DNA of 44,313 bases from contig JAHHGS010000102.1 in the NCBI GenBank assembly GCA_019359715.1, forward strand, positions 1 to 44,313, given 5' to 3'. The DNA is from Aphanocapsa sp. GSE-SYN-MK-11-07L (GTDB taxonomy: Bacteria > Cyanobacteriota > Cyanobacteriia > Thermosynechococcales > Thermosynechococcaceae). Under the pieces are notes generated by a model. It was not told the DNA's origin and searched no databases. It saw only the letters and a list, made by a program, of their open reading frames with translations. Position numbers and translations under genes: made by a program. Shown here in pieces: positions 5,021-44,127 of the stretch (positions are counted from its first letter, which is position 1; the number at the start of each line of letters is the position of its first letter).

Positions 5021-5056
5021 AAGCTGCCTACTCTCAAACTTGAGAGTAGGCAGCTT
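5021..5056 (-). terminator. Rho-independent terminator downstream of grxD
   Basis: Arms AAGCTGCCTACTCTCAA (5021-5037) and its exact complement (5040-5056) give a stem of up to 17 bp with a tiny loop, so the tip must open. On the minus strand it is followed by a T run (5015-5020 are A on the plus strand). It lies about 40 nt past the grxD stop. The near-perfect symmetry means it may also work for transcripts arriving from the other side. Confidence 0.8.
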
Positions 5057-14690: not shown

Positions 14691-15152
14691 ATGCTGGTTC
14701 TGGAGGCGAAAATAAAAGGTAAGATTGAGCAGTTCGAGGCTTTGGATGAAGCCATGCGGACGGCTCAGTTTATCCGTAATTCTTGCCTTCGGTTTTGGAT
14801 GGACAATCCTAAAGTCAGCCGTAATGATTTGTACAAATACTGCAAAACACTGGCGGATGACCCAGCATTCCCTTGGGCGAATAAGCTCAATTCCCAAGCT
14901 CGGCAAGCTCACGCCGAACGAGCCTGGTCTGCCATTGCTCGGTTCTACGACAACTGCAAAAAACAGGTTCCTGGTAAAAAGGGATATCCCAAGTTCAAGA
15001 AGTTCCAAACTCGTGCCAGCGTAGAATATAATGCTGCAATCAACATCTTGAAAAAGGGACTCAATACGGTGGGACACACCGGAATCAAAGCTTGGGGAGA
15101 GAACGACCTCTATCTCAGTCAAGCAATTGGCTCAGATAAGTTGACTCGATGA
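14691..15152 (+). pseudogene. tnpB: IS605-family TnpB with central deletion
   Basis: TnpB is the RNA-guided nuclease of IS200/IS605 elements, usually about 400 aa. This frame is 153 aa. The N-terminal part is normal (FIRNSCLRFWMDN, SQARQAHAERAWSAIARFYD, KKGYPKFKKFQTRASVEY) and joins, in frame near residue 113, to the far C-terminus (NAAINILKKGLNTVGHTGIK, normally after the last RuvC Asp). The RuvC I and II acidic residues and the zinc ribbon are gone, so no nuclease can be made. The start ATG has GGAGTAAGG upstream. No tnpA is present. Confidence 0.85.
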
Positions 15153-37729: not shown

Positions 37730-37925
37730 AAAATTCACCCTCGCTAAAACTAGCGTCAATATAAATTGTGTAGCGGTAGCGCCATCGATAATTAATTGAC
37801 TGCTCAAACAGGATGACAACTTCTCCACCGGGCATCACATCAACAAATCTGGCGCGCCATTGCAAGGGCAGTCGATAACGAAGAACTTCAAACAGCCGCT
37901 GAAGCTGCACTTCATTTGGCTGCAT
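37722..37925 (-). CDS. Hypothetical protein, first of a coupled pair
   Basis: 67 aa from the ATG at 37925 (MQPNEVQLQRLFEVLRYRLP, then a strand-rich GGEVVILFEQSINYRWRYRY). It has a compact alpha/beta look. Its stop overlaps the start of the following small gene. I recognise no family. A GTG at 37937 would add four residues. Confidence 0.55.
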   Translation of the reverse strand: MQPNEVQLQRLFEVLRYRLPLQWRARFVDVMPGGEVVILFEQSINYRWRYRYTIYIDASFSEGEFYV

Positions 37926-38099
37926 CACCAGTCCCACTATTGATCAATTCTCGCTATGCCGCTTTGGTAATGATGGAGAGTAGGGGCATTGAATAAAGTC
38001 GTAAATTGCTCGTAGTTAAGTGATTTTATTGCAGGATAATATTTCAGTGCCCCCAATTGTGCCCCCTGAAGATTATTGCTAGCTTGTTTTACAGAACTG
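37926..38099. other. Gap with a GTGCCCCC direct repeat
   Basis: GTGCCCCC occurs twice with a 4-bp spacer at about 38048-38067. It sits at the border between the core-like genes and the phage-like region, so it may belong to an attachment site. I cannot show this, because the other end of the element is outside the window. Confidence 0.3.
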
Positions 38100-38360
38100 C
38101 TAACCTTTGCCAAGCAGCCTCGCTAACCCCGCAAACAGCACATCGGCTTTATCCACAACGCCGCCAAAAATCACCACAGCTCCGGCAGTGATGATGATAG
38201 TTGTAGCCATGCGGGTCATGCCTTCGGAGGCTTTGACATAGGCATCAAACTTGGTTTCAGCTTTCTCTAGTCGGCTATCGAGGCGGGTAATATCTCCGTC
38301 AATTTTGTCCAAGCGCTCTAAGACTAAGCGCTGAAAGTCGTTATCTGTGGCTTGAGTCAT
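38100..38360 (-). CDS. Coiled-coil plus membrane helix protein, 86 aa
   Basis: The N-terminal part is a heptad coil (FQRLVLERLDKIDGDITRLD, then SRLEKAETKFDAYV). A single membrane helix follows (ATTIIITAGAVVIFGGVV). This architecture is like small phage or mobile-element membrane proteins, but the identity is unknown. It lies last in a leftward set with the ribbon-helix-helix candidate. Confidence 0.55.
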   Translation of the reverse strand: MTQATDNDFQRLVLERLDKIDGDITRLDSRLEKAETKFDAYVKASEGMTRMATTIIITAGAVVIFGGVVDKADVLFAGLARLLGKG

Positions 38361-38484
38361 CTTGTTCTATCCTGCTCCTCCCAGAGCTTCATCTCTTTTT
38401 TGAACTGCTCAATCGCCGGATTATACAGCGATTCAGGCTCTTCTTAAGCCTTCTGGGTCTTGAGCTACCCATTCAGGGGAACTG
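38361..38484 (-). pseudogene. Possible small frameshifted gene
   Basis: Two minus-strand frames read as one short acidic protein when joined: LIDSSPEWVAQDPEGL then, after a shift near 38446, EEPESLYNPAIEQFKKEMKL and WEEQDRTR, ending just before the 86-aa gene. The family-B palindrome at 38411-38433 lies inside it. There is no good start; a TTG overlaps the stop of the 198-aa gene. Weak evidence. Confidence 0.3.
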
Positions 38485-39081
38485 TCAATCAAGGTTGTAT
38501 TTTTTCTGGAATTCAACGAGGGTGGGTGGTAGTTTAATCGCCAGAGACTTTGGCGATTTTGGGTCTTCTGTGAACTTTCCTACCTTCTTTAGGTTTTTCC
38601 AAAACAATGGAATCTTAAATTCCGCTGCTCCTTTGCCAGAAGACATCCGTTGCTGGATACAAGAGCCTTCCAGGCACCAAGCGCGAAAAGCTAAATACTC
38701 AGCCTCTGATTCAAAAGCTTGGGTCATACAGCCTCTCTTTAGTTTTTCGAGGTGCTTTTCCTGGCTGAGATGCTTTTCCCACCTTGCCTCATCTTGCTTG
38801 AAATCTTCGGTCAGCCGACTAAAATGTTCTTCGTCCTTCGCTTGCCATTCAGGGTGATAATTCGGTTCCCGTGGAGCATCATAGGGAATCTGCCAAGGGG
38901 GCAATAGACGATCGCGCTCAATCTTTTCGTAAATCGCCTGTCGAATGAACTCGCTGCGATTAGGAAGTGAGTTGAGTAAAGCTTCAATTTCTGCGGTTAC
39001 AGCAGCCGTGGCCCTTCCGCGCGTTAGCCCTTTGCCTTTCGGCCAACGGGTTTCATGATTTTTTGGGTTTTTGCTTGGCAT
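38485..39081 (-). CDS. Ribbon-helix-helix-like protein, 198 aa
   Basis: Begins MPSKNPKNHETRWPKGKGLT. Residues about 27-55 (AAVTAEIEALLNSLPNRSEF then IRQAIYEKIERDR) fit a strand-helix-helix DNA-binding unit like the CopG/MetJ family. The middle is a charged helix (EEHFSRLTEDFKQDEARWEK) and the end is variable. It is divergent from the 251-aa gene. If it is a repressor it may bind the inverted repeat in that gap. A palindromic repeat (38536-38558) lies in its coding sequence. Confidence 0.6.
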   Translation of the reverse strand: MPSKNPKNHETRWPKGKGLTRGRATAAVTAEIEALLNSLPNRSEFIRQAIYEKIERDRLLPPWQIPYDAPREPNYHPEWQAKDEEHFSRLTEDFKQDEARWEKHLSQEKHLEKLKRGCMTQAFESEAEYLAFRAWCLEGSCIQQRMSSGKGAAEFKIPLFWKNLKKVGKFTEDPKSPKSLAIKLPPTLVEFQKKYNLD

Positions 39082-39083
39082 TT

Positions 39084-39120
39084 ACGTAGAATCACTGATA
39101 ATAAACCCAGTATACTACGT
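39084..39120. promoter_or_regulatory. Inverted repeat in a divergent promoter region
   Basis: ACGTAG (39084-39089) and CTACGT (39115-39120) are inverted, with GTATAC just inside the second arm. The site starts only 3 bp before the start of the ribbon-helix-helix gene. It is a reasonable operator for that protein. The arms are short, so chance is not excluded. Confidence 0.3.
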
Positions 39121-39207
39121 TATATTTAATTCATGAGGCAAATCGCTACAGCCTCTCGCTACCACTACCGCCCACCCTCTACATTCCTGGGCAAAGGACT
39201 TTCAATC

Positions 39208-39963
39208 ATGTCTAATTACAATCCCTACACCGCCGCTTTTGCTGCTCTGACCAATTCCCAAGCACGTCAGTTCTATGCACAAACAGCCAGAGAGCATTCA
39301 CAGTTGCTTGAAAGCTCTCTCGTCAATGCGATGACACTCTGTCTGATTGTCATTCGCCTGGGTCAGCTCACCCGCGAGTTCATTGAGTGGCAAAAACGGG
39401 AGGAACCTTCCCCCCGTTTATTGCCAAGTAAAAACCGCAATTTGCAGAATTTGAACGGCAAAACCCGAACGGTTCAGGTTTTGTCGTTGCCGCCGGCTGC
39501 TGCCCCGATTGCCTTAATCGCCGGAGTCTCCAGCGATTTGCCCGAAGGAAGGTGTCCGGCGGAAGATTCCCCCGGCACACTTCCGCAAGTCTCCAGCGCC
39601 CCTCGCCGGGTATTGATTACGCCAGCGCCGCAGACAGAATCGCCAGAGGATCTGGCGATTGACAACTATTGGTCATCTGACGATCGAGAAGAGTTTTTGC
39701 CGTCGATCACACAACGTCAGCTTGACGCTGCACAGGCAGCAAAAACGGGCGGAATCTTCCCCCCGTTTGTTGCTGAAGTCTATGCCCTTGGGACTGAGTT
39801 AGAAGCCAGCATGGCGAAAACAGATGACATGCTGCGAGAGATGAAAACGGCTGTCCTAGACTCGATGACCATTCGCCAGCTCAAGGCGATCGCTCGTGAT
39901 CGCAAGCTCGCCGGCTACGGTCGGATGACTAAAGCTAAGTTAGTCGAGGCGTTGTCTCGATAG
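39208..39963 (+). CDS. Unknown 251-aa protein with SAP/Rho-N-like end, full of palindromic repeats
   Basis: The ATG at 39208 gives MSNYNPYTAAFAALTNSQAR. The first 65 residues are helical; about 65-190 are low-complexity and Pro-rich; the last 35 (DSMTIRQLKAIARDRKLAGY then GRMTKAKLVEAL) resemble a SAP or Rho N-terminal nucleic-acid-binding motif. At least six long palindromes interrupt the middle (see repeats), two of one family being read in different frames, so much of this part may be repeat insertion rather than a designed domain. It converges with the capsid gene. Confidence 0.6.
   Translation: MSNYNPYTAAFAALTNSQARQFYAQTAREHSQLLESSLVNAMTLCLIVIRLGQLTREFIEWQKREEPSPRLLPSKNRNLQNLNGKTRTVQVLSLPPAAAPIALIAGVSSDLPEGRCPAEDSPGTLPQVSSAPRRVLITPAPQTESPEDLAIDNYWSSDDREEFLPSITQRQLDAAQAAKTGGIFPPFVAEVYALGTELEASMAKTDDMLREMKTAVLDSMTIRQLKAIARDRKLAGYGRMTKAKLVEALSR
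39389..39775 (+). repeat. Family A palindromic repeats inside a gene (three copies plus one relative)
   Basis: Copies: 39389-39425, 39547-39584 and 39737-39775. Each has a GGAA-nn-TTCC tip, then a mismatch facing C (A, C and C in turn), then a 4-7 bp stem (AAACGGG/CCCGTTT in the first and third), then a one-base bulge on the right arm, then an outer stem of 4-6 bp. A related palindrome at 39454-39488 (arms AACGGCAAAACC and GGTTTTGTCGTT) has a C-A mismatch at a like place. The first and third copies are 349 bp apart in register, so they are read in different codon frames. Confidence 0.8.
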
Positions 39964-39989
39964 CAGACAAAAATACCCCCAGAGCGCTA

Positions 39990-40010
39990 ATTGCCAGAGA
40001 ATCTGGCAAT
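39990..40010. terminator. Hairpin between convergent genes
   Basis: ATTGCCAGA, loop GAA, TCTGGCAAT, with outer CCCCCA/TGGGGG that may extend the fold. It lies 27 bp after the 251-aa gene stop and 33 bp past the capsid gene stop, where a two-way terminator is expected. There is only a short T run on each side. It is also the family-B repeat copy. Confidence 0.45.
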
Positions 40011-40042
40011 TTGGGGGCAAGTCATTGTCATCAGAGAGAAAG

Positions 40043-41860
40043 CTAGGTTGTAATGCAGTCTGTGATGGCTGCAAAGGAAGCGGGCCGACGAATTCCGATA
40101 TCGAGCGTCATCATCGCCCTAACCGCGATTCTGCCAGCGCTGAAATCGTTCTCTCCGTAGGGATTTGAGAGGATTTCCATCGCGCCCCACTGACCGATCA
40201 AAAGGTCTGCCCAATTGGCAAAGAGAATGGCGCTCAGGTTGGTTCCTGAACCCTTGGCCAGGTTGGAGGGAATGTTATTGGAAATCCCACATCTATAACC
40301 ATTCAATCGCTCAAAGCCTGGCGTAGATTGACCGCTATCGCCAATGATGAATTCGCTGGATGGCGAGGGTTTCAAGGTGTTTTTCAGTACGCCCCTGACC
40401 TTGGAATTAGTCAGGTAGCCCAAGCTGCCCACATCGGCATTCGCATTGGAGAGCAACGTTTCCAGGGCAACGACATTAGCCCAGCTGGGAGCTGCCCCGT
40501 TAGCACCTAAGGCGACTGAGCCAATCCCAGGAGTGTTGAGAATGCCGCGCGGAACCCCACCCGTACCAGAGCCAGCAATGGAAACTCTATCAATTTCAGT
40601 TGCCAGGATGGCGGCAAAGTCGCTTCGGATCAAATCCTCGATCGCTGGAGTGGCTTGAAGCAACGTCAATCGGCTAAATCGGCTCAGAGCACCAACCGTT
40701 CGAGGTCTTAGCGAAACCACGTCAAACAAGCCCTCGGATTGGGTAATAGGGGCATCTTCAGCCACCCAAAACGTGTTGGCGGAGGCGGTTCTTCTTGGCA
40801 CATCAGTATTTCCGACCAATCCGCTTAACAAACTTGCGCCCAGCTGCAACGTCAAACAGCGATTTCTGAGTGCATCAACGAAGCTCTCACTTAGCAAATC
40901 AGTCGCGACCAAATTCCCCCCGGTACTGGGTGTTCCGACCATGTAGGTCGCCCGTTTCTGGCTGGTAAACATCAGGTCATGAACCGGGATTAAAAGCCCC
41001 TGTGGTGGCTTACTTGAACGCTGGGCTAGGGCTTCATGACACTCACGCTCAAAGCCTGCTCCAGACCAGTCTTTCTCTGCCCAAGCCAAGATAGCGCGGG
41101 CCAAACTGTATTTTTTTTGATCAGACCGGCTTAAACCAAGTACCGATTCGTTGGGAATCGCCGCAACTGGCGACTGGGTATTAGACATGATCGAATCAAG
41201 CAGCAGCCCTCTCGCCGTTTCTAAATCTGTTCCCTGTGAAATCAACCTTTCAGCCAACTCTTCTCGCCCGTGGCGCTGTCCATAGCCGCGAATGGAGCTA
41301 ATCCGATCGCGCTCTTTTTCTTCAATTTCACGTATTTCATAGGTATTCATTCCGTTTCCTCCTTTGTTAGTAAATCTTTGTCGGCCCAATCCCACCGTTG
41401 GATCGACGGGCACAGCAGTCAGCGAAATTTCCACCGGCCGCCAGCGGGTGATCAGCACTTCCTCACCGTTTTGGACGGCGGCCATAATCTCGTAGCGGCA
41501 GGAGATGCCCCGCAGGGTGCCTTCTTGCACCTGGGCGCGGCGCAATGGCGCATCACCCAGCGCTGACCACTTGGCAATACAGCGCCCCCGCCGATTCTCA
41601 ATTCGGGCATCGATGATAGAGCCGATAATATTGTCGGAATCATGGTTCCAAAGCCAGTTGGCCACCCCCGATCGTAGGTAAGACAGGTCTACCGCCTCTG
41701 GCTCATGGCTGAGGATTTCGAGGCCCCAAGGGCGCTTGTAGGGGTACTCGCTGGAAAAGGCGAACTCAATCGTGTCTGCGCTTTGCTTCTCAACCGAAAG
41801 CGGCAATACCGCTTCAAGCTTTCGATTGAGTAATGATCTTACATTGAACGGCAATGCCAT
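40043..41860 (-). CDS. HK97-type prohead protease fused to major capsid protein
   Basis: A 605-aa fusion. Residues about 30-160 are a prohead protease (S78/U35): LWNHDSDNIIG holds His73, TLRGISCRYEIMA holds Ser120 at the HK97 His-Ser spacing, and VEISLTAVPVDPTVGLGR is the family end. A linker with charged helices (IREIEEKERDRISSIRGYGQ) leads to an HK97-fold capsid protein from about 270 (GGNLVATDLLSESFVDALRN, ITQSEGLFDVVSLRPRTVGA, LIRSDFAAILATEIDRVSIA, SGTGGVPRGILNTPGIG, AVRAMMTLDIGIRRPASFAA). Protease and capsid are usually separate genes. The fusion lets the protein cut itself during assembly. Confidence 0.92.
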   Translation of the reverse strand: MALPFNVRSLLNRKLEAVLPLSVEKQSADTIEFAFSSEYPYKRPWGLEILSHEPEAVDLSYLRSGVANWLWNHDSDNIIGSIIDARIENRRGRCIAKWSALGDAPLRRAQVQEGTLRGISCRYEIMAAVQNGEEVLITRWRPVEISLTAVPVDPTVGLGRQRFTNKGGNGMNTYEIREIEEKERDRISSIRGYGQRHGREELAERLISQGTDLETARGLLLDSIMSNTQSPVAAIPNESVLGLSRSDQKKYSLARAILAWAEKDWSGAGFERECHEALAQRSSKPPQGLLIPVHDLMFTSQKRATYMVGTPSTGGNLVATDLLSESFVDALRNRCLTLQLGASLLSGLVGNTDVPRRTASANTFWVAEDAPITQSEGLFDVVSLRPRTVGALSRFSRLTLLQATPAIEDLIRSDFAAILATEIDRVSIAGSGTGGVPRGILNTPGIGSVALGANGAAPSWANVVALETLLSNANADVGSLGYLTNSKVRGVLKNTLKPSPSSEFIIGDSGQSTPGFERLNGYRCGISNNIPSNLAKGSGTNLSAILFANWADLLIGQWGAMEILSNPYGENDFSAGRIAVRAMMTLDIGIRRPASFAAITDCITT

Positions 41861-42402: not shown

Positions 42403-42821
42403 GGTTCCACCTTCAATTGTTTTGCTTGCCAATCCCCACCACCGCCATCAGCGAACCTTACCCTGTAGGTCTGGTCGGTCGGGTCGTAACTCTCAACCCT
42501 GCCCATTCGATCTTTAAATTTGCCACCGGTGATCACTCGAACGCGATCGTCAACCTGAAAAGCCCGGTCAGAAATAAACTCGTTTTTTTCCCTTAGTGAA
42601 ACATGGGTGTCAAGGGTGTCAAAGCCCTGAAAGTCTTTCTGGCTATAGCTTCTATCTGACACCCTGCTTGACACCCTTCTGACACCCCGCCCATTGCCAT
42701 TGGGTGTCAGGGTGTCAGAAATTGGAGGGAGGGTGTTCAAGCAGGGTGTCAGACGAAACGCTCTCACTGTCTGAATTTTGGGGTTCTGACACCCTTGACA
42801 CCCCTGACACCCCCTCTCCAC
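42399..42821 (-). CDS. Short protein with KOW-like C-terminus
   Basis: Up to 140 aa. The C-terminal 55 residues (FQVDDRVRVITGGKFKDRMG, then RVESYDPTDQTYRVRFADGG) look like a KOW/SH3-type beta barrel that binds RNA or DNA. The first 60 residues are read through the TGACACCC array and are low-complexity, so the real start may be a GTG at 42674 or 42662. It overlaps the end of the helicase gene by about 107 bp in another frame. Confidence 0.6.
   Translation of the reverse strand: MERGCQGCQGCQNPKIQTVRAFRLTPCLNTLPPISDTLTPNGNGRGVRRVSSRVSDRSYSQKDFQGFDTLDTHVSLREKNEFISDRAFQVDDRVRVITGGKFKDRMGRVESYDPTDQTYRVRFADGGGGDWQAKQLKVEP
42605..42812. repeat. Iteron-like array of TGACACCC octamers
   Basis: Eleven exact copies in 208 bp. 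GGGTGTCA starts at 42605, 42614, 42702, 42710 and 42744. TGACACCC starts at 42657, 42669, 42680, 42787, 42796 and 42805. One imperfect copy (GGGTGTTCA) is at 42731. Within a run the starts are 8-12 bp apart, and runs alternate in direction. The array covers the overlap of the helicase and KOW-like genes. Such arrays next to a replication gene are typical of origins bound by an initiator. Confidence 0.85.
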
Positions 42822-44127
42822 TGAGAGCTTTTTTTGAATTTATTTTTCTCACCCACAGTTTGACTCGTTCACCATTGCGGTAAACAGAATTTGGGTTGTA
42901 CTCAAATCCCAACCGCCGCAGAATGTTTGTGACTCGTGAGCGCTTGCTGTTGTCGAGCAGTCCAATGTCAATCTTGAGGACATGGGTAAAAATCTGATTG
43001 ACAGACACCTCTTCTCGGTTCTCCAGGAAGTCGGCAATGACATCATGCCAAGCGTCAACGACCTCAAACTCCTTCCGCGCTGCTTCAGCCGCCAGCTCAT
43101 CCTTATCGTTCAGCCACCACGATTCACCGCCCTTGTATAACGAGACAGCCGCCGCCCAGAGCCGATCGCGTTCCTCTCGCACCAGGTCAAGCGGAATCTT
43201 TTGATTAACTCTGATCACCCACCAGCGGCGATTTCCAGTGCTGTCCTGTAGGAATTCAGTGTCGTTGGTGGTGCCGATAATCGTCGAAGGGCGTGGCATT
43301 GGCTCAGCCTCTCTGCCGTAGGGCCGCCGGATATGGTCGTTCGAGCAGGACATAAACTGTTTGACTCGTTGTATCTCACGCCGGGTCAGCCCCGACAACT
43401 CCGACCATTCAACAATCCAAGTTTCATGCAGCTTCAAGAGGTGGTCTTTGTCGGTCGGATTGTTGAAGTCATCGCAGAACCAGGCAGGGGAGGCCAACAG
43501 CTTCAAAAATTCGGACTTTTGATAGCCCTGCGGCCCCTGAAAAACAGTCGAATCTTCAGCTTTGCAGCCAGGCTCAAACACCCTGGCCACCGCTCGGATC
43601 AGCGTCTTAACAAGCTGGGTCTGGGCGATCGGCTCTGAGTTGCCGAGATAACGTTCAGCCAGCCCCTCTAAAACCTGGATGTCGTTGCCGAATTTGGAAA
43701 AAACACGATCTAAATAGTCTTTGACGGGGTTGTAGCTATTTTTCTGAGCCAGATAAAGCACAATTTCCATCAAATCGTCTTTGCCCGACTTCAGAGGTAG
43801 GCCCTTCTCAATCACCAGTTTGAGCCGTGCTTTTTCAGCCGGGAATGGCTCACCGTCAAGCTCTGGTTTGTTCAGAATTTGGTTAAATCTCAGTTTTCGC
43901 CCCAGTCGATTTTTGATCAGCTCGTACTCAGTCACGTAGCGGCTCCTAACCTGCTTGCGCTGCCGTTTCTCTCGCCACCGTTTAGCCATTGTCAATAGGT
44001 CTCTGGCTCTAACCCCCTGTTTAGCGAACTGTGTCCCCAGCCGCCTCAGAAATGCACTGCACTCATCCTCTGGCAAGTAGAGAACGGCTAAACAGGCGGC
44101 CAGCTTCGAGCGCTTGACAATTTGCAC
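42715..44127 (-). CDS. VapE/VirE family helicase-like ATPase
   Basis: A 470-aa protein. The N-terminal half is helical and unrelated to anything I know. The VirE/VapE (PF05272) P-loop ATPase follows: FQGPQGYQKSEFLKLL (Walker A, 198-205), HETWIVEWSELSGLTRREIQ (Walker B side), then FMSCSNDHIRRPYGREAEPM and TTNDTEFLQDSTGNRRWWVI, the family signature. A winged-helix-like end and a Ser-rich tail (encoded by the octamer array) follow. VapE proteins act as replicative helicases of phage satellites and prophages. The frame is open to about 44250 but has no usual start before the GTG at 44127. Confidence 0.88.
   Translation of the reverse strand: MQIVKRSKLAACLAVLYLPEDECSAFLRRLGTQFAKQGVRARDLLTMAKRWREKRQRKQVRSRYVTEYELIKNRLGRKLRFNQILNKPELDGEPFPAEKARLKLVIEKGLPLKSGKDDLMEIVLYLAQKNSYNPVKDYLDRVFSKFGNDIQVLEGLAERYLGNSEPIAQTQLVKTLIRAVARVFEPGCKAEDSTVFQGPQGYQKSEFLKLLASPAWFCDDFNNPTDKDHLLKLHETWIVEWSELSGLTRREIQRVKQFMSCSNDHIRRPYGREAEPMPRPSTIIGTTNDTEFLQDSTGNRRWWVIRVNQKIPLDLVREERDRLWAAAVSLYKGGESWWLNDKDELAAEAARKEFEVVDAWHDVIADFLENREEVSVNQIFTHVLKIDIGLLDNSKRSRVTNILRRLGFEYNPNSVYRNGERVKLWVRKINSKKALSGEGVSGVSRVSEPQNSDSESVSSDTLLEHPPSNF

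Follow-up and report, generated by a model that had tools for sequence, protein, structure and literature searches.

Two families of dispersed small hairpin repeats in a cyanobacterial genome: probable SDR-like inserts with covarying stems

Two families of very small hairpin repeats, A and B, are dispersed in the genome of the cyanobacterium Aphanocapsa sp. GSE-SYN-MK-11-07L. Their copies have sharp ends, their stems covary, the tips of some otherwise alike copies are inverted, and one B copy has an empty counterpart in the same genome. Our main reading, to which we give a probability of about 0.6, is that both families are non-autonomous dispersed inserts, similar to the small dispersed repeats (SDRs) of other cyanobacteria, which were placed by an enzyme and in which template switching then made the covariation of the stems. 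For the copies inside genes, the best explanation is that the hairpins are not parts of the genes they occupy.

Hairpins at the phage-like end of the window

The window, i.e. the whole stretch of 44,313 nucleotides that was analysed, is contig C102 of a 5.1 Mb genome in 159 contigs. The window end that carries the hairpins is phage-like, with a head protein and a VapE-like helicase/primase, and both families are copied there and elsewhere. HIP1 (GCGATCGC), described as common in the genomes of cyanobacteria (PMC4390886), has 49 sites in the window against 0.68 expected from the base composition. Bit scores below are from two covariance models, R1 for family B (built from 12 copies) and R2 for family A (built from 3 copies). 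The features of the region are:

38411..38433, B hairpin, the most decayed, between listed ORFs; outer stem AATCGC/GCGATT kept; R1 29.5 bits
38485..39081, minus strand, host ORF of 198 aa; one B copy near its C-terminus
38536..38558, B hairpin inside ORF 38485-39081 (minus strand), part read KSPKSLAI; R1 34.9 bits
39133..39963, plus strand, host ORF of 276 aa; N-terminal part resembles gene L019, C-terminal Rho_N domain, hairpins between
39388..39426, A hairpin in ORF 39133-39963; R2 64.0 bits
39456..39486, A-shaped hairpin, candidate only; 10-bp stem, C-A mismatch, GAA..TTC tip
39516..39538, B hairpin inside ORF 39133-39963, part read LIAGVSSDL; R1 35.5 bits
39546..39585, relative of A with stem letters mostly different; R2 20.6 bits, E 0.0018
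39638..39660, B hairpin with a perfect 10-bp stem inside ORF 39133-39963, part read ESPEDLAI; R1 39.9 bits
39737..39775, A hairpin, second copy, in ORF 39133-39963; R2 63.4 bits
39989..40011, B hairpin with pair 4 T-A instead of C-G, 25 nt past the ORF stop codon; R1 38.6 bits
40043-41860, head protein, window end
42715-44127, VapE-like helicase/primase, window end

Family B is 23 bp long, with a 10-bp stem and a 3-nt loop, and its five copies within 38411-40011 confirm the original prediction of five 23-bp copies in 1.6 kb, a density far above chance. The frame AATYGC-N11-GCRATT is found five times in the window, compared with a mean of 0.03 and a maximum of 1 in 100 dinucleotide shuffles of the window. 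When at least 8 of 10 stem pairs and a loop of 3 nt are required, 38411-40011 holds seven near-palindromes, whereas 500 shuffles gave 0.72 on average and never more than 3. Five of the seven are the B copies. The paired change that had been read from the stems is also present, with AATCGCC/GGCGATT at 38536 and 39638 and AATTGCC/GGCAATT at 39989, and the stems at 38411 and 39516 are imperfect. The reading frame differs between B copies, and a shared protein motif was therefore rejected as the source of their likeness.

Family A is built over 39 bp of an outer stem, a 3' bulge, an inner stem, a mismatch and a GGA..TCC tip. Three copies plus a relative had been claimed in the window. Two clear copies were recovered, both belonging to the alignment from which R2 was built, so that their bit scores are those of the model's own sequences; beside these two there are two look-alikes. 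The tip, the mismatch and the 3' bulge, predicted to be the same in each copy, are common to the two copies and the relative at 39546-39585. The hairpin at 39456-39486 comes from the palindrome scan and folding only (z -2.77), and it is absent from the matches listed for R2.

That several of the hairpins lie inside a gene was also correct: six are inside ORF 39133-39963 and one B copy is inside ORF 38485-39081, for which no Pfam or PHROG match was found. L019, a gene in a genome of the same family, is a shorter and diverged relative of the N-terminal part of the 276-aa ORF; it is without the Rho_N part and too divergent for the insertion edges to be located. In its genome, the R1 search of the order gave no B match.

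Other inverted repeats and ORFs were noted along the window. The palindrome scan has its longest perfect stem at 5021-5056, a 16-bp inverted repeat with a 4-nt loop, and about 205 bp at 42602-42806 match their own reverse complement at 69%. A short ORF at 14691-15152, named by eye, resembles the start of TnpB (MLVLEAKIKGK...) and is akin to the tnpB start found downstream of two A copies (L138, L139).

Dispersal and insertion

The genome-wide covariance search bears out the dispersal of the hairpins by copying. R1 finds at least 13 B copies at E below 1e-6, with the next best at E 0.29 (150 of 7,165 candidates scored), and R2 finds seven A places, with the next best at E 0.79 (147 of 147 candidates scored). 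Besides the five B copies in the window there are two each on C116 and C33, and one each on C86, C94, C105 and C129. The copies on C116 are near genes resembling integrase, primase and terminase, and two B copies (L001 and L025, at the tnpB end) and four A copies (in the left end) lie in IS605-type ends; in both cases the ORFs were read by eye. On C118 an ORF (L128 9672-10115) is interrupted by an IS605-type left-end fragment that itself carries an A hairpin, again judged by eye.

One B copy can be compared with its empty site. The copy on C94 (L001) is in the 3' end of an IS605-type tnpB and adjoins a 97-bp MITE-like repeat, which has TTA at both ends and is found in six other places at 97-100% identity (C1, C33, C54, C81, C112 and C158). 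When this repeat is omitted, the right end of L001 is 92% identical to a paralogue on C135 over 134 bp. The filled site reads GGGCA[ATCGCCAGAGGATCTGGCGAT]TTGGGG in L001, compared with GGGCA directly followed by AAGGGG in C135, so that L001 is longer by a net 21 bp and stays in frame. Judged from this alignment, the B copy of L001 is an insertion relative to a repeat-free paralogue in the same genome, and the insertion boundary sought for the original prediction is thus seen for one B copy. No AATYGC-N11-GCRATT hairpin is present in any of seven plasmid TnpB homologues. These homologues differ in length by a few codons at the insertion spot, so it is the C135 paralogue from which the figure of 21 bp is taken. 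Close empty/filled pairs number one for B and none for A.

The B insertion site looks like a step between A and T, with no target duplication visible at the single paired site. The flanks of the 13 copies have little in common beyond the outer A and T, and CCCA precedes a few of them. A comparison of the eight B loci outside the window with each other and with the window end showed likeness that stopped within a few bases of the hairpin in every pair but L005/L008; despite these unlike surroundings all 13 copies have the same 23-bp limits. HIP1 was rejected as the B insertion site, as none of the 13 sites gives GCGATCGC after removal of 21 bp. The net gain of 21 bp keeps the reading frame, and 11 of the 13 copies are without a stop in all six frames, so B can settle in genes. 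Six of the 13 are in putative genes: three in the window and those of L001, L004 and L007, of which L004 and L007 are the least certain.

Viral contigs gave no homologue of either host ORF in the window, phages none of the 198-aa ORF, and plasmids none of the 276-aa ORF or of the L004 ORF. The L007 ORF has one partial plasmid match, at residues 28-64, that stops short of the insertion. A DNA search of plasmids with 39380-39780 gave two matches, both at chance level.

That very small palindromic repeats are inserted precisely in this genome is seen from a 27-bp palindromic repeat, GTTCGACTGAGCGCTCACGCCGAAGTC, which has exact empty and filled sites in L136 (1436 empty, 1541 filled; L136 1436-1593). 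At one place of the IS left end there are 0 bp in L138, 15 bp in L139 and 27 bp in L135 and L137. Eleven plasmid records match GTTCGACTGAGCGCTCACGCCGAAGTC; six are cyanobacterial, the best being 29 of 29 bases in Calothrix, and the five others match over 71-77% of the query.

In other genomes, R1 matched 20 besides the own one among 386 of the phylum (E 0.0001) and four besides the own one among 29 of the order (E 0.001), and R2 matched four besides the own one among the 386 (E 0.0001). The outside matches are one or two places per genome and reach at most 32.1 bits with R1 and 33.6 bits with R2. The top R1 match (G219) equals the weaker own copies in score, and its pairing extends into the flanks. 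The outside loci that were inspected (12 of the 21 from the R1 phylum search and all eight from the R1 order and R2 phylum searches) differ from B or A in the tip or in the arms, and some are terminator-like. No genome with a family of A or B copies was found among these 386 and 29 genomes outside the own one, a weaker absence than the tallies imply as the phylum searches scored 20 (R1) and 17 (R2) candidates per genome. A scan with AATYGCCRGANNNTCYGGCRATT of contigs from 84,980 species gave 41 loci, none titled cyanobacterial (records of the own genome were possibly excluded), which we take as background hairpins, and viral contigs scanned with AATYGCCRGANNNTCYGGCRATT gave 0 loci. Both families are taken as private to this genome or its near kin, the compared genomes including no genus mate. 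Such a private range is no rule for repeats of this kind, since GTTCGACTGAGCGCTCACGCCGAAGTC is found in other cyanobacterial plasmids.

Covarying stems and inverted tips

In both families the stems covary, as the original prediction had it. In the 13 B copies, three of ten pairs are changed on both sides, with a score of 0.262 against 0.137 in shuffled alignments. For family A the alignment with the relative has six sequences, i.e. the seven places (three identical ones entered once) and the relative at 39546; here ten of 16 pairs are changed on both sides (0.429 against 0.162). The relative supplies six of the 12 double-changed cells, and without it five of 16 pairs remain (0.256 against 0.092). 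None of 500 shuffles reaches the observed score in any of the three comparisons, which are to be read with the limit that related sequences can outscore such shuffles even without structure. One-sided changes between standard pairs are rare, at 3 of 110 cells in B and 1 of 80 in A. Unpaired cells make up 6 of 110 in B, which indicates that the copying of one arm onto the other is incomplete.

The tips behave differently from the arms. L005 and L008 belong to a 177-bp duplicate with nine mismatches, and three of these are the change of the loop from GGA to TCC, with both arms unchanged. In family A, the 16-nt tips of L135 and of L137, L138 and L139 are exact reverse complements of each other in the same IS605-type left end. 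L001 and L025 have opposite loops beside a common IS right end; a common insertion is a candidate explanation for this pair.

According to PMC8604942, template switching from one arm of an inverted repeat to the other homogenises the arms and inverts the spacer, and multibase compensatory changes are attributed to it in PMC8794818. Inverted tips together with paired changes are thus the reported footprint of template switching, and the fold need not be that of a selected RNA. From the alignments, template switching would explain both the covariation and the inversion by one process, without an RNA function, and it seems to be errors in copying one arm from the other, rather than the needs of an RNA, that keep the arms matched. 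The original prediction had offered a structured RNA or a spread DNA hairpin as the meaning of the conserved fold; the DNA hairpin agrees with these findings, and the inverted tips speak against the RNA.

Proposed origin and alternative explanations

The same limits in 13 places call, we infer, for an enzyme that recognises the hairpin. This sharpness at both ends is unlike that of elements scattered by template switching alone. Such an enzyme would have placed the inserts, and the likeliest candidate is a transposase of the IS200/IS605 type (Y1), acting in trans on single-stranded DNA; for this step we see about one chance in three. After placement, template switching during replication would copy one arm onto the other and flip the tip, and the "compensatory" changes would arise thereby without selection on an RNA. 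In favour of Y1 are the five Y1 matches of the genome, four full length and a fragment, and the B and A copies read as lying in IS605-type ends. Against it, no A or B copies were found in ten loci (34 kb) around these five matches, the hairpins have no adjoining guide motif of the GTAG kind, and Y1 enzymes cut outside the hairpin.

Cyanobacterial SDRs are about 21-27 nt long, fold as hairpins with compensatory mutations and are viewed as moving by an RNA intermediate. SDR families of heterocystous cyanobacteria were reportedly described by Elhai et al. in 2008. By this description, and not by sequence, A and B appear to work like SDRs. B (13 copies, 23 bp, net 21) is within the SDR size range, both families have predicted hairpins with compensatory changes, and here too there is precise insertion, other small repeats alongside and a genome rich in HIP1. 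The differences are that A, with 39 bp, is longer than the SDR range and that the tip inversion points to template switching. Membership of B in SDR5 is excluded by its target: SDR5 is described as splitting HIP1 after its third base (PMC4390886), whereas the B sites are steps between A and T and never HIP1.

Other classes of small repeats resemble the hairpins in part. Rickettsia palindromic elements share the in-frame insertion into genes in the account of PMC3733652; they were compared by description only, their host is unrelated, and no CGTC tag is found beside B. MITEs are likewise non-autonomous and dispersed, and one MITE-like repeat adjoins B in L001; however, A and B fall far short of the 70-300 bp stated for MITEs (PMC3733652), and B is without the target-site duplication. 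REPs and REPINs moved by RAYT enzymes are short imperfect palindromes, some intragenic, with compensatory stem changes, as described in PMC3733652 and PMC3116915. Overall, REPs, MITEs and the known RNA families each fail at least one of the features tested.

The most serious rival to enzyme placement followed by template switching is that selection keeps the fold and that a transcribed RNA hairpin is the mobile or working form, with a terminator role for A included. The strong covariation in both families is what it would predict, and in 38000-40200 there are seven terminator-like sites compared with a mean of 2.6 in shuffles, four of them on the A hairpin at 39388 and one on that at 39737. 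A may thus act as a terminator outside genes. Selection on RNA, however, does not predict tips that are inverted while the arms stay, and the one-sided intermediates expected from it are few. Six hairpins within one ORF would be an odd place for terminators. In 37800-40600 the Rfam search gave two matches up to E 1, both far below the gathering scores. On the B copies in 38000-40200 there is no terminator-like site, and a terminator was rejected as the role of B. Altogether we regard a selected RNA as unlikely.

Two further explanations appear less probable still, and about equally so. If the hairpins were palindromes of the REP kind moved by a RAYT (Y1) transposase, their shortness, their presence inside genes and the Y1 matches would fit, and REPs are reported in cyanobacteria and inside genes (PMC3733652). 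But a GTAG or CGTC tag adjoins none of the 13 B copies (one GTAG is within 10 nt, not adjacent), the copy numbers are low, at 13 and 7, and the Y1 loci are without hairpins. The hairpins could instead be scraps of IS605-type element ends left after decay, as the copies at the tnpB end and in the left end suggest. Against this, the C135 paralogue and the seven plasmid homologues are without B, and a short palindrome that belongs to the element itself lies just downstream, as seen by eye. Moreover, the flanks of the B loci share no likeness beyond a few bases apart from L005/L008, in a comparison of these loci with each other and not with an IS library.

Finally, the hairpins could be local palindromes that arose in place, by template switching or chance, and are not copies of each other. 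Template switching can make perfect hairpins according to PMC8794818, and there are two further near-palindromes in the region. Much the same 23 letters are, however, found in 13 places, and the B frame is met at most once per shuffled window, which makes this origin very improbable. It was rejected for B only, and the hairpins at 39456-39486 and 39546-39585 are outside that rejection.

Returning to enzyme placement followed by template switching, a wider claim can be put forward with some reserve, as somewhat less probable than its opposite: inserts of net 21 bp would make up a class of mobile DNA whose members enter genes between A and T without breaking the frame, and the covariation of their stems would come from mutation by template switching. 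The covariation in such repeats, earlier taken as evidence for an RNA intermediate, would then be no evidence for one. Mobile units of about 21 bp are close to the smallest size for which transposition has been proposed. Inverted tips in otherwise alike copies provide a direct test, from sequence only, between selection on RNA and template switching, and this bears on every case in which a structured RNA is considered proven by the covariation of short inverted repeats.
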